Source of the DNA: Natronorubrum sediminis
GTDB taxonomy: Archaea; Halobacteriota; Halobacteria; Halobacteriales; Natrialbaceae
Reading direction: 5' to 3'
Length of the DNA: 64,000 nucleotides
NCBI RefSeq assembly: GCF_900108095.1
Contig: NZ_FNWL01000002.1
Location: 602,748 to 666,747 of the forward strand
Below the pieces are notes generated by a model. The model had not been told where the DNA came from and ran no database searches. It saw nothing but the letters and a program-made list of their open reading frames with translations. The position numbers were made by a program, and so were the translations under genes. This document shows, piece by piece, positions 19,536 to 29,926 of the stretch (positions are counted from its first letter, which is position 1; each line of letters opens with the position of its first letter).

Positions 19536-19709
19536 ATGAAAGAGCCAACCTGCAAGCTCGTGTGTACCGGTTGCGGCCTCGAGATGCCGTATCGGAATCG
19601 ATCGCTGGCCGAACAAGCGGCGGAACTCCACCAACTCCGGGATGCAGAGCATGTGACGTTTATCGTGCCACCGGACTGGTCGCCCGAAGAGCCAGTGAAA
19701 CAGCGATGA
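19536..19709 (+). CDS. Small CxxC zinc-binding protein
   Basis: A protein of 57 residues: MKEPTCKLVCTGCGLEMPYR opens it, with three Cys residues (6, 10, 13). A charged helix with EQAAELHQLRDAEH follows and could supply His ligands. Such small Cys-pair proteins are numerous in haloarchaea and mostly of unknown function, though some affect stress and biofilm traits. The frame continues upstream to 19470 but without similarity. It lies just ahead of the tRNA gene. Confidence 0.6.
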   Translation: MKEPTCKLVCTGCGLEMPYRNRSLAEQAAELHQLRDAEHVTFIVPPDWSPEEPVKQR

Positions 19710-19755
19710 CGCGTATCGACAGGTACTTACTCAGTTCGTGAAAATCTGTTCGTGA

Positions 19756-19840
19756 GCGCGGGTAGCCAAGCCAGGCCAACGGCGCAGCGCTTAGGACGCT
19801 GTCCCGTAGGGGTCCGCCGGTTCGAATCCGGTCCCGCGCA
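19756..19840 (+). tRNA. tRNA-Leu (anticodon UAG)
   Basis: An 85-base type II tRNA. Acceptor arm GCGCGGG (19756-19762) pairs with CCCGCGC (19833-19839), with A as the discriminator base. D arm GCC/GGC, anticodon arm CAGCG-CTTAGGA-CGCTG with TAG at positions 34-36, a long variable arm TCCCGTAGGGGTCC, and T arm GCCGG-TTCGAAT-CCGGT are all present. The CCA end is not encoded. It reads CUA and other CUN Leu codons. No intron is visible. Confidence 0.95.
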
Positions 19841-19870
19841 TTCTCCGCGAACAACTCCGTGAGCGGAGAA
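19841..19870 (+). terminator. Hairpin directly after tRNA-Leu
   Basis: TTCTCCGC (19841-19848) and GCGGAGAA (19863-19870) form a perfect 8-base stem starting on the base after the tRNA. No T tract follows, so it could be a processing or stability element and not a simple terminator. Confidence 0.5.
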
Positions 19871-19879
19871 TGCGGTCAG

Positions 19880-20069
19880 CGGTTCGAACCCTGGAAGGAA
19901 CGCGCAGCGACCGTCGGGAGCGAGCATTTCTTGCTTTGGTTCGAATCCGGTCCCGCACACTGACGAGTTTTCGAACGAAGTGAGAAAACGAGTGAGGGGG
20001 CAAAAGCGGATTCGCGTCCCAGCGGACGAGCGGAACGAAGTCCTCGCGGTTCGAATCAAGTCTCGCGCA
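19880..20069 (+). repeat. Three degenerate copies of the tRNA-Leu 3' end
   Basis: Copies of the T arm and acceptor 3' strand of the upstream tRNA occur in the same orientation: CGGTTCGAACCCTGG at 19880-19894; GGTTCGAATCCGGTCCCGCA at 19938-19957, which repeats the tRNA almost exactly; and GCGGTTCGAATC...TCTCGCGCA at 20046-20069. No 5' halves accompany them. Such 3' ends are what tyrosine-integrase insertions into a tRNA gene leave behind as attachment sites, so these may be scars of past element insertions. No integrase gene is in the window. Confidence 0.7.
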
Positions 20070-20236
20070 TTGCTGTGGCGAGCAAGCACGCAAGCGACAG
20101 CGCTCGAGTGTCACGTCGAGGACGAGGCCAGAAACCCGACGTAAGAGTGGCCTCGAGTAGAGTCGGACCGGAACGTGGCAGACACGCGTCAGACGGTCCA
20201 CAACGTTTATTCGCGCGGACACGACTTATATGATCA

Positions 20237-21049
20237 ATGGACGGCTTAGACGACGTGTTCGGCGATCTCTATTCGGACGTCGATGGGGTTTTCCTCTTCT
20301 CGCCGAGTGGCTCGTATTACGAGCGATTCAAAGCGATCGAGGATGTCGACGTAGTCGTCGTCGGAACGGAAAACGCGGTGGGTGCAGAGACGTTCGTCGA
20401 ACTCCCACTCTCGTTCGACGATCTCACCGATCGAATCCGGTTCGCACTCGAAGGCGCACTCGAACAGGACGTCATCGAAGACGGGGACGAACTCATCTGC
20501 GCGACGAGTGTGTTCAGCGGCGAGACCGATACGCTCGCGCGCGTTCGTGCGGACGGCGAGGCACACACCGGCATCTACGACCTCTTCGTGAAATCTCGAG
20601 CGGACCCAGAAGTGATCAAATCCGTACTCGAGTTGGCGATCGAACTCGGACAGAAGGGACAAAAAGGAAAGCCCGTCGGTGCACTCTTCGTCGTCGGCGA
20701 CGCGGGCAAGGTGATGAACAAGTCCCGACCGCTGTCGTACAATCCGTTCGAGAAATCCCACGTCCACGTCGGTGACCCCATCGTGAACGTGATGTTAAAG
20801 GAGTTCTCGCGACTCGACGGTGCGTTCGTCATCTCCGATGCGGGGAAGATCGTCTCCGCCTATCGATACCTCGAGCCGTCGGCCGAGGGCGTCGACATTC
20901 CGAAAGGACTCGGCGCGCGGCACATGGCCGGGGGTGCGATCACTCGAGATACGAACTCGATAACGATCGTGCTCTCGGAGAGTGATGGGCTCGTCCGGGC
21001 GTTCAAGGCCGGCGAGCTTATTTTGGAGGTCGATCCGGAGGCGTACTGA
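20237..21049 (+). CDS. dacZ: Archaeal diadenylate cyclase DacZ (c-di-AMP synthase)
   Basis: A protein of 270 residues. The C-terminal half is a DisA_N-type diadenylate cyclase domain: DGAFVISDAGKI with the DGA motif at 194-196, GARHMAGGAITRDTNSITIV with the RHxxA-type motif at 228-229, then LSESDG. The N-terminal 120 residues match the extra domain of archaeal DacZ proteins. It condenses two ATP into c-di-AMP in the cytoplasm. The start ATG 20237 lies at leaderless distance from a TATA-like GTTTATTC. One base separates it from the mechanosensitive channel gene, so the two are an operon. Confidence 0.9.
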   Translation: MDGLDDVFGDLYSDVDGVFLFSPSGSYYERFKAIEDVDVVVVGTENAVGAETFVELPLSFDDLTDRIRFALEGALEQDVIEDGDELICATSVFSGETDTLARVRADGEAHTGIYDLFVKSRADPEVIKSVLELAIELGQKGQKGKPVGALFVVGDAGKVMNKSRPLSYNPFEKSHVHVGDPIVNVMLKEFSRLDGAFVISDAGKIVSAYRYLEPSAEGVDIPKGLGARHMAGGAITRDTNSITIVLSESDGLVRAFKAGELILEVDPEAY

Positions 21050-27432: not shown

Positions 27433-27628
27433 TCGGACTCGAGATCACCGCTCGAAACGGCGATTCGCAGCCATCGAGTCGGTGACTCGAGACCCATCGG
27501 TCGGACAACCCGTTCGTCCCACTTTGCGAACGTATTTTCACTGAGTGGTTCCGTTGGATGATAGTCCAAATTAAAACAATAATATTCTCGATACCTTTTT
27601 ACTGGTCACAATCTTGTGTCCGGCCACG

Positions 27629-29926
27629 GTGAGTACTCTATCAAGCCGGCTTCCCGATGAGATCCGGCGGTCGTATTCGCGGAAAATGCTCGTCCTCTTT
27701 GCAGTCATCATCCTCTGTATCACCTCGATCGGCGGGGTCATCTACCTGCAAACGGGCAGTGCACTCGAGGCCGAAACGGCGGACGAACTCGAGCAATCGA
27801 CGCAACTCCAATCGAACGTATTGGCCGAGAGCATCGATCGCTACCAACACCACGTGCGGACGCTGGCCGAGTCCAACGTGATCAACAGCGGCACGGACGG
27901 CGAAATCGAGTTGACGCTGAATAGCGAGGTGTCCTCGGCCCCCGATAGCGTCGTCGCCGCCCACTACATCGATACGGACGACTACGAGGTCCTCATCAGT
28001 AGCGACGACGACGCCGAAGGCGTCAGCTTCGCAGACGAGGGCGTCGACTGGGCGACAGACGACACGCTCCACGACGGCCAGTCGGGGATCCACCTCACGG
28101 ATCCATACGACGATCCAGTGACCGATAACGCCTCGATCGCGATCACGAGTTCGGTCCCCGAGGAATCCGATCGCGGGGTCGTCTTCGTCATCGATCAGGA
28201 CGACCACGCGAGCGAACTCGCCTCGCCGTCGCTCGAGGACGACGCGTTCACCCAGATCGTCAACGAAGATGGCGAGGTCGTCATGAGCCACGACGACGAG
28301 GCCGCCACGGACGAACACCACGGGGTCGACGACGAGGACGATCCGCGTGCGGCCGCAATCGAAAGCGGACTCGAGGGCGAAACCGGCTACCTCGAGTCCG
28401 ACGTCGGCGGCAGCGAGATGGCCCTCGGCTACGCACCGGTCGACGGAACAGACTGGGTCATCATGGCCCACACGCCGATGGACGCGGCCTACGACCTCCA
28501 CCAGAGCGTCACGCGTTCGGTGATCGCGCTCGTGCTCGTCTCGTTGCTCGGCCTGGGAACCATCGGCGTGGTCGTTGGCCGAAATATGTCTCGGTCGCTG
28601 AACGAACTCACGGCCAAAACGCGGGAAGTCGAACAGGGCAACCTCGAGACGGAACTCGAGTCGGATCGCATCGACGAAATCGGCGAGTTGTACGCCGCGT
28701 TCCGGAGTATGCGAGATTCGTTGCGGGAAACGCTCCACGAGGTCAACACGGCGAAAAAGCGAGCGGAGCGACGAGAGCAGACGCTCGAAGTATTGGTTCA
28801 ACAACTCGAGCAGGAGGCGAGTGAGGTGATGAAGCGGGCGGCCGACGGCGACCTCACGCAGCGAATGGACGTGACGGAAGGCAACGAAGCCATCGAACAG
28901 GTCGCCACCGAGTACAACGAGATGATCGAGCGGATCGAGACGACGATCGACGATCCGAAACGGTTCGCGGGCGACGTGGCATCCCACAGTGAGCAGGTCA
29001 CGGCGAACGTCGAGGAGGTCCAAGCCGCAAGCGAGCAGGTGTCGACGGCCGTCCAGGACATCTCTTCGCACATCGACCACCAACACACGATGTTCAGATC
29101 CGCGGCCGGGGAGATGGCCGAAATCGAACAGATGGCCGACGATATCGCCTCCCTGTCCGAATCGGTGAGCCACTCGGCGACGCAAACGGCGGCGGCCGGA
29201 GAGGAGGGGCGCTCGACGGCCCGCAATGCGAAGGAGGCAATGTCTCGCATCGACGAGGAATCCAAGCAGACCCTACGAGAGATCGAAAAACTCGAGCAAC
29301 AGATGGCCGAAATCGAGGAGATCGTCGACATGATCTCCGAGCACGCAGCCCAGACGGACCTCCTCGCGTTGAGTGCGAACATCGAGGCGTCGAGACAGAC
29401 GACGGAGACGACGGAGTTCGGAACCGTCGCCGCGGAGGTCAAAGAACTGGCCAGAGAGACGAAAGAGTCCGCCGCCGAAATCGACACGATCATCGCCTCT
29501 CTCGAGTCTCAACTCGAGCGGACGACCTGGGAGGTCGAGGCAACGCGAAGCGAGATCGACGAGAGTAAGGCGGTGATCGAAGAGACCGTCGACACCCTCG
29601 AGAGCATCGCAACCTACACGACCTCGACCTCGAGTGGCGTTCAACAGATCGCGTCACTCAGCCAGCAACAGTCCGACTCGACCCAGGACGCCAGGCAGTT
29701 GATCACGAACGCGACGGAACTGAGCGAGCAGGTGACGGCGGAGACGGAGACGGTCGCCGCTGCGACCGAAGAGCAGACGAGTTCGCTCGAGGAAGTCACC
29801 ACGAGCGCGAACCAACTCGCGAGCGAAGCCCAATCCCTCCACAGCACGCTCGATTACTTCGAGACCGCGGCGGACGACGAACCGGAACACCACTTCAAGT
29901 TCTCACACGGCACGCTCGAGGAGTAG
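27629..29926 (+). CDS. Methyl-accepting chemotaxis transducer (Htr type)
   Basis: A protein of 765 residues. Membrane helix one is MLVLFAVIILCITSIGGVIY (about 20-40). An acidic extracellular sensor region of about 250 residues follows, of likely double-Cache type. Membrane helix two is SVIALVLVSLLGLGTIGVVV (about 292-312), then HAMP domains (NMSRSLNELTAKTREVEQGN) and a long methyl-accepting coiled coil. The signalling tip reads AAQTDLLALSANIEASRQTT, a diverged form of the usual QTNLLALNAAIEAAR tip. It would bind CheA/CheW at the cytoplasmic end. The ligand is unknown and no che genes are nearby. GTG 27629 is preferred to TTG 27614. Confidence 0.88.
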   Translation: MSTLSSRLPDEIRRSYSRKMLVLFAVIILCITSIGGVIYLQTGSALEAETADELEQSTQLQSNVLAESIDRYQHHVRTLAESNVINSGTDGEIELTLNSEVSSAPDSVVAAHYIDTDDYEVLISSDDDAEGVSFADEGVDWATDDTLHDGQSGIHLTDPYDDPVTDNASIAITSSVPEESDRGVVFVIDQDDHASELASPSLEDDAFTQIVNEDGEVVMSHDDEAATDEHHGVDDEDDPRAAAIESGLEGETGYLESDVGGSEMALGYAPVDGTDWVIMAHTPMDAAYDLHQSVTRSVIALVLVSLLGLGTIGVVVGRNMSRSLNELTAKTREVEQGNLETELESDRIDEIGELYAAFRSMRDSLRETLHEVNTAKKRAERREQTLEVLVQQLEQEASEVMKRAADGDLTQRMDVTEGNEAIEQVATEYNEMIERIETTIDDPKRFAGDVASHSEQVTANVEEVQAASEQVSTAVQDISSHIDHQHTMFRSAAGEMAEIEQMADDIASLSESVSHSATQTAAAGEEGRSTARNAKEAMSRIDEESKQTLREIEKLEQQMAEIEEIVDMISEHAAQTDLLALSANIEASRQTTETTEFGTVAAEVKELARETKESAAEIDTIIASLESQLERTTWEVEATRSEIDESKAVIEETVDTLESIATYTTSTSSGVQQIASLSQQQSDSTQDARQLITNATELSEQVTAETETVAAATEEQTSSLEEVTTSANQLASEAQSLHSTLDYFETAADDEPEHHFKFSHGTLEE

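Follow-up and report, generated by a model that had tools for sequence, protein, structure and literature searches.

Hairpin units closing with copies of the tRNA 3' end behind tRNA genes of Natronorubrum sediminis and other haloarchaea

The closest known relative of the arrays described here, judged by analogy of layout, is the RtT repeat of the Escherichia coli tyrT locus, of which the haloarchaeal arrays may be regarded as a variant. In both cases, tandem units follow a tRNA gene and each unit closes with the tail (T loop to discriminator base) of that tRNA. Downstream of tyrV in E. coli K-12 lie three copies of the tail at a spacing of 178 bp (tail ATCCTTCCCCCACCACCA, 19/22), and the Rfam family RtT (RF00391), which served as a positive control, marks four units at the tyrT/tyrV locus. 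Each repeat contains a stretch of the tail in inverted orientation, GCGGGGAAGGAT (10/12, a match reached by 32 of 5000 shuffles), which base-pairs with the direct copy and encloses a branched hairpin; furthermore, a motif CTC-GA-GC-loop-GC-GA-GAG can be recognized by eye. However, the E. coli repeats are described at one locus, their units are nearly identical and their sense strand folds no better than the antisense strand, whereas the haloarchaeal arrays are found behind roughly half the tRNA genes of the two fully surveyed genomes, with isoacceptor-specific arms, many types of the second hairpin and one to five units. The covariance model of RF00391 did not match the haloarchaeal units at any value up to E=1.

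Concerning other systems, integron attC sites are imperfect hairpins of one strand with a variable tip. The haloarchaeal units share this form as well as recombination-like direct repeats at their flanks, and their arrays likewise grow beside a fixed anchor; in contrast to integrons, however, the units carry no genes, the anchor is a tRNA gene, and the integron integrase (TIGR02249) had no match above the cut-off in any of 59 genomes, where just weak cross-matches to tyrosine recombinases were obtained. BIME/REP arrays consist of alternating inverted and direct repeats that form hairpins behind genes, as do the units studied here, but the haloarchaeal repeat is the adjoining tRNA's own end and varies from locus to locus. 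The t-elements of tRNase Z are minihelices of acceptor stem and T arm; this parallel was rejected, since the tail copy lacks the 5' acceptor strand and its T loop pairs with an inverted arm. Casposases target the 3' ends of tRNA genes (PMC6977970), and the arrays have in common with casposons and CRISPR loci a polarised insertion beside an anchor and the duplication of the target repeat. The casposon duplication, however, measures 14-15 bp and begins close to the end of the tRNA, whereas in the haloarchaeal units 21 bp counted from the T loop are duplicated. Casposons have terminal inverted repeats and carry cas1-solo and polB, whereas the piece inserted here, of about 100 bp, is gene-less and too short to hold genes.

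In haloarchaea themselves, 'partial tRNAs' have been reported, of which 11 were counted in Haloferax gibbonsii, several of them adjoining the full copy (PMC7921747), and which are linked to prophages in Haloquadratum (PMC3119063). These remnants directly beside a full copy resemble the tail copies treated here, but at least in those parts of both publications that concern them, they are listed as remnants, with no mention of a unit, an inverted arm, a polarity or an order-wide family.

The tRNA-Leu(UAG) locus

The window, i.e., the whole stretch of DNA analysed, comprises 64,000 nucleotides of the Natronorubrum sediminis genome, and all positions refer to it unless stated otherwise. Its tRNA-Leu(UAG) gene is followed by two units (19841-19959 and 19960-20069) in the order tail, hairpin A, hairpin B and tail, with the inverted T loop in hairpin B pairing with the next direct T loop (Table 1). 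Repeat finding yielded a direct family of three members (the tRNA and two copies) at spacings of 119 and 110. A 22-nt query of T loop and acceptor end matched at 21/22 positions at 19938 and at 19/22 at 20048, whereas elsewhere in the 64 kb, on either strand, no match exceeded 16/22, such that the two direct copies are not due to chance.

The first-pass annotation had delimited the interval correctly (19817-20069) and described three tail copies of the same orientation within it. Two of these are direct copies; the remaining one, at 19880, has no acceptor part, and its position as well as the comparison with other units mark it as an inverted copy of the T loop, which owes its direct appearance to the palindrome TTCGAA. 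At other tRNAs, namely those bearing A at position 57, the inverted arm is plainly visible as GATTTGAA. A further inverted T loop, which has diverged more strongly (GCGGATTCGCG, about 20006-20016), had been overlooked.

Table 1. Features at the tRNA-Leu(UAG) locus, with positions in the window
Feature	Position	Strand	Description	Basis
tRNA-Leu(UAG)	19756-19840	+	tail G53-A73 = 19820-19840	ARAGORN, Rfam RF00005
Hairpin A, unit 1	19841-19870	+	abuts discriminator base; stem TTCTCCGC/GCGGAGAA, GA/GA mismatches	inverted repeat, fold
Hairpin B, unit 1	19878-19950	+	5' arm = inverted T loop GCGGTTCGAACC at 19879-19891, first 'copy' of the first-pass annotation	
Direct tail copy 1	19939-19959	+		20/21 match to tRNA-Leu(UAG) tail
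Hairpin A, unit 2	19960-19996	+	GTTTTC-GA-AC-GAA-GT-GA-GAAAAC	fold
Hairpin B, unit 2	20006-20060	+	more degenerate; inverted T loop GCGGATTCGCG at 20006-20016	
Direct tail copy 2	20049-20069	+		18/21 match to tRNA-Leu(UAG) tail
A-like hairpin remnant	20070-20102	+	past last tail; orthologous flank retained in congener G001	sequence comparison
Neighbouring downstream gene	20237-21049	+	270 aa	ORF list

An Rfam scan of the locus matched the tRNA alone, and the fold of the entire 270-nt trailer is unexceptional (z -1.3); the signal lies in the single units and in their comparison. On the minus strand, open reading frames extend across tRNA and units (19660-20222) and give peptides such as 'GTGFEPAD' and 'GPDSNRRTP'; they are probably artefacts of the sort that annotation places opposite tRNAs and tail copies. 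The product of the neighbouring downstream gene presumably resembles a diadenylate cyclase of the DisA_N/DacZ type. A tRNA-Ser(cga) predicted by ARAGORN at 28181-28269 (minus strand) is a false positive, as it is situated within an ORF of 770 aa (27614-29926) and absent from the RF00005 matches of the genome.

Anatomy and distribution of the units

In a survey of all 42 tRNA genes of the genome, a copy of the own tail (at least 17/21 matches within 200 nt) was found downstream of 24 genes, as against one upstream copy, at a duplicated tRNA-Asp; in a control with the tails of other tRNAs, 1.8% reached this threshold. According to folding, a standard pair of hairpins fills the gap between tail and tail copy, so that a unit begins directly past one tail and includes the following one (about 75-190 bp). 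Hairpin A begins one base past the discriminator and commonly takes the form stem-GA-..-GA-stem. In hairpin B, the inverted T loop with the T-stem strand (positions 53-64) constitutes the 5' arm and the direct copy the 3' arm, while the middle is variable; acceptor strand and discriminator close each unit 3' of it. Certain types of hairpin B occur repeatedly, downstream of different tRNAs and in more than one species, e.g., TCAGGGAG..CGACCGTGG, GACGAGTCGCAG..GACCGTCTCGGCGT and CTGAGGTT..GGTTCTCGG. The inverted arm is isotype-specific at positions 62-64 (agreement of 89, 75 and 52%, versus 50, 32 and 27% with other tails) and exhibits no specificity past position 64; an inverted arm comprising the full tail including the acceptor part was dropped as a candidate on the basis of this test. 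Position 57 covaries within hairpin B (17 U-A and 5 C-G pairs, 0 failures). A second small palindrome, CGGCTNNGCCGTTTCGTRATGAC..GAGAG..CTCTCGAAC, apparently a further short repeat of haloarchaea, occurs inside unit hairpins and in flanks (unit 2 of tRNA-Lys-ctt, unit 2 of Val-gac, and the flank of locus L120).

Of 135 units, 124 fold better as the sense than as the antisense strand; z is below -2 in 72%, and the stem-GA-loop-GA-stem motif is found in 53 units on the sense and in one on the antisense strand, with 1.2 expected from shuffles. The folded form is therefore a single strand of tRNA sense, which applies to RNA and single-stranded DNA alike. Pairing in hairpin A (405/490, versus 271 when shuffled) shows an excess that is inflated by the selection of stems for pairing, for which reason the comparison of sense and antisense folds was relied on instead.

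A covariance model of hairpin B (R1), built for genome searches, marks 23 places in the genome, 21 of them behind tRNAs and two behind inserted elements. It matched in 51 of 59 Halobacteriales genomes (43 of the 44 of good quality) and, in a broader archaeal sample, in 22 of 24 haloarchaea versus none of 124 other archaea. The exact pattern of inverted and direct T loop is present in 23 of 24 haloarchaea, with up to 33 matches when both strands are counted, as against one or two stray matches in each of five archaeal genomes outside this group and a single match of the reversed control. Furthermore, a pattern of 18 nt, ACGACCGTGGTTCRAATC, was taken from one B type and contains no isotype information: 76 of the 80 loci listed are haloarchaeal, representing about 50 genera among the matches listed. 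All 75 listed matches with a tRNA upstream on the same strand precede that tRNA's own tail (the next 12 bases agreeing with tRNA positions 62-73 at 8/12 or better, mostly at 12/12), with at least 26 isoacceptors concerned; the four bacterial loci, where there is no tRNA, are chance matches. The arrays thus belong to a large family of short hairpin units behind about half of haloarchaeal tRNA genes, a proportion based on the two fully surveyed genomes. R1 is absent from a few haloarchaeal lineages (genomes G154 and G045 and the genomes of about 1 Mb of family f2), which could act as natural controls in the search for a co-occurring enzyme. A unit-like sequence is also situated on a megaplasmid of Natrinema thermotolerans (CP031304.1, 235382-235458), with no annotated gene or tRNA alongside.

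Decay, unit changes and integrated elements

In the two whole genomes, the first tail copy of an array matches the tRNA better than the last in 14 cases, equally well in 6 and worse in none; in a wider set, selected by pattern, the corresponding numbers are 24, 11 and 2. When the genome is compared with that of G001, whole units directly 3' of the tRNA are found in one of the two congeners only at several loci. Differences with clean, sharp junctions exist at two tRNA-Asp genes (two units and one unit), Ser-cga (128 bp), Met (135 bp) and Ile (130 bp), those at Val-tac, Glu and Phe are accompanied by small indels, and Lys-ttt does not represent a clean difference; in the genome studied here, Ile, Glu and Lys-ttt are empty of units. 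At the His locus, the extra unit is distal to the tRNA, not proximal, and at loci with a single unit, gain and loss cannot be told apart. The earlier suggestion of a favoured insertion point thus agrees with what is found, as the tRNA 3' end repeatedly gains whole pieces of DNA and congeners differ by complete units beside it.

On sequence comparison, the units are mosaic, with A or B segments differing or changing place between species. At Leu-UAG, hairpin A is common to both congeners and hairpin B differs. At Ser-cga and Phe, what serves as the A segment of unit 1 in one of the two species is found in its congener as the flank past the last tail. One hairpin B is common to Lys-ttt and Lys-ctt, two isoacceptors with identical tails.

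Integrative elements use tRNA genes in haloarchaea, as two publications describe (PMC7921747, PMC3119063), and they do so in the genome studied here. Arg-tcg is followed by a 30-kb element that carries integrases, past which come a partial tail and two complete units; at Arg-gcg, a 4.4 kb element separates the tRNA from its copies; and at Ser-tga, two tRNA copies are separated by an element of about 6 kb that carries an integrase, and the displaced copy retains a degenerate unit. The latter element (C1:239139-245249) is bounded by two full copies of tRNA-Ser(tga), not by one full and one partial copy. In Haloterrigena salina, a stretch with one integrase-like ORF, recognized by eye, precedes a displaced tail and a unit (locus L108). 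Elements enter in front of the arrays, and the arrays predate them. No genuine unit was found in scans of IMG/VR, nor any unit in phage records scanned with one unit-rich query; the viral pattern matches L081 and L251 are due to chance, being situated within coding genes and not beside tRNAs. A search for a recombinase going with the units found none.

Origin and meaning of the arrays

The anatomy of the units, their tRNA specificity, order-wide spread and sense-strand structure, their decay with distance and the whole-unit changes next to the tRNA point to an array of small non-coding hairpin cassettes that recombine and are anchored on the end of the tRNA gene, a reading to which we give about an even chance. 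New units may enter by recombination within the T loop or 3' end, in which case the incoming unit would provide the tRNA with an identical tail, while the former tail would be pushed downstream and slowly decay. This exchange should work best between tRNAs with the same tail, so that units would stay matched to their tRNA. Against this reading count the negative outcome of the search for a recombinase, the scans in which no free or viral unit turned up, the segments that differ or change place between species, the identical Lys-ttt units of G001 and the ambiguity of gain and loss at single-unit loci. It is a more speculative thought, and one we hold with considerable doubt, that haloarchaea possess a dedicated system by which gene-less hairpin cassettes are inserted into tRNA genes at the T loop or 3' end, so that polarised arrays, comparable to integrons or CRISPR loci, are built on most of them; the inverted T-loop arm would guide the cassettes to, or keep them at, their own tRNA, and the E. 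coli RtT repeat would represent an outlying bacterial case of this system.

The pronounced structure could just as well reflect a role in RNA. The units may be co-transcribed with the tRNA, with hairpins acting in 3' processing, in termination or in the release of a small RNA as in RtT, and may be kept by selection. Such trailers are a possible but rather doubtful explanation: folding is on the tRNA-sense strand, B stems fit the tRNA type, the units are near-universal in Halobacteriales with the same layout in E. coli RtT, and stems covary, G.U exceeding A.C by 44:14 in hairpin A, whose stems were, however, chosen for pairing, whereas in the B stem, with position 53 excluded, G.U and A.C are about equal (45 versus 39). 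Moreover, unit number and B type vary between congeners at the same tRNA, about half of the tRNAs are without units, and distal units decay, all of which speaks against functional trailers.

Rather improbable is the passive alternative, i.e., that the units multiply, shrink and exchange merely via homologous recombination or replication slippage between tails. In G001, the Lys-ttt locus contains two identical units of 121 bp and both neighbouring tRNA-Asp genes bear one same unit, and at locus L113, units 1 and 2 are near-identical; the segment swaps together with the identical Lys-ttt units indicate that ordinary homologous recombination is also at work, through gene conversion and tandem duplication. 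Yet such processes explain neither the origin of hairpin B and of the isotype-specific inverted arm at loci otherwise empty (Glu, Ile), nor the proximal bias, nor the B families common to several isoacceptors and families.

That the copies are attachment-site scars, i.e., displaced tRNA ends of integrated and later deleted viruses or plasmids with their two ends as spacer, as the first-pass annotation had proposed, is very unlikely: the 3' part of the tRNA is directly duplicated, the copies run from T loop to discriminator like displaced att fragments and tRNA genes do serve as integration sites of elements in this genome, but the spacers are not random element ends and represent one conserved two-hairpin family across at least 26 isoacceptors of the order, the elements examined (Arg-tcg, Arg-gcg, Ser-tga) have different ends that are not unit-like and displace the array or tRNA as a block, A/B units occur in no virus or phage record scanned, and PF00589 integrase matches, present in the genome, number zero inside the window.

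The haloarchaeal unit family is apparently undescribed; no description was found in the open-access literature, and a prior account elsewhere is possible. The arrays would account for scattered 'partial tRNAs' and would make the 3' flanks of tRNA genes fast-changing loci, and they would offer a testable case of polarised, sequence-matched gain of cassettes at essential genes. If transcribed, they would constitute a large class of structured RNAs joined to tRNA precursors, and the fact that E. coli RtT has the same layout suggests that the phenomenon is more widespread and has been overlooked.
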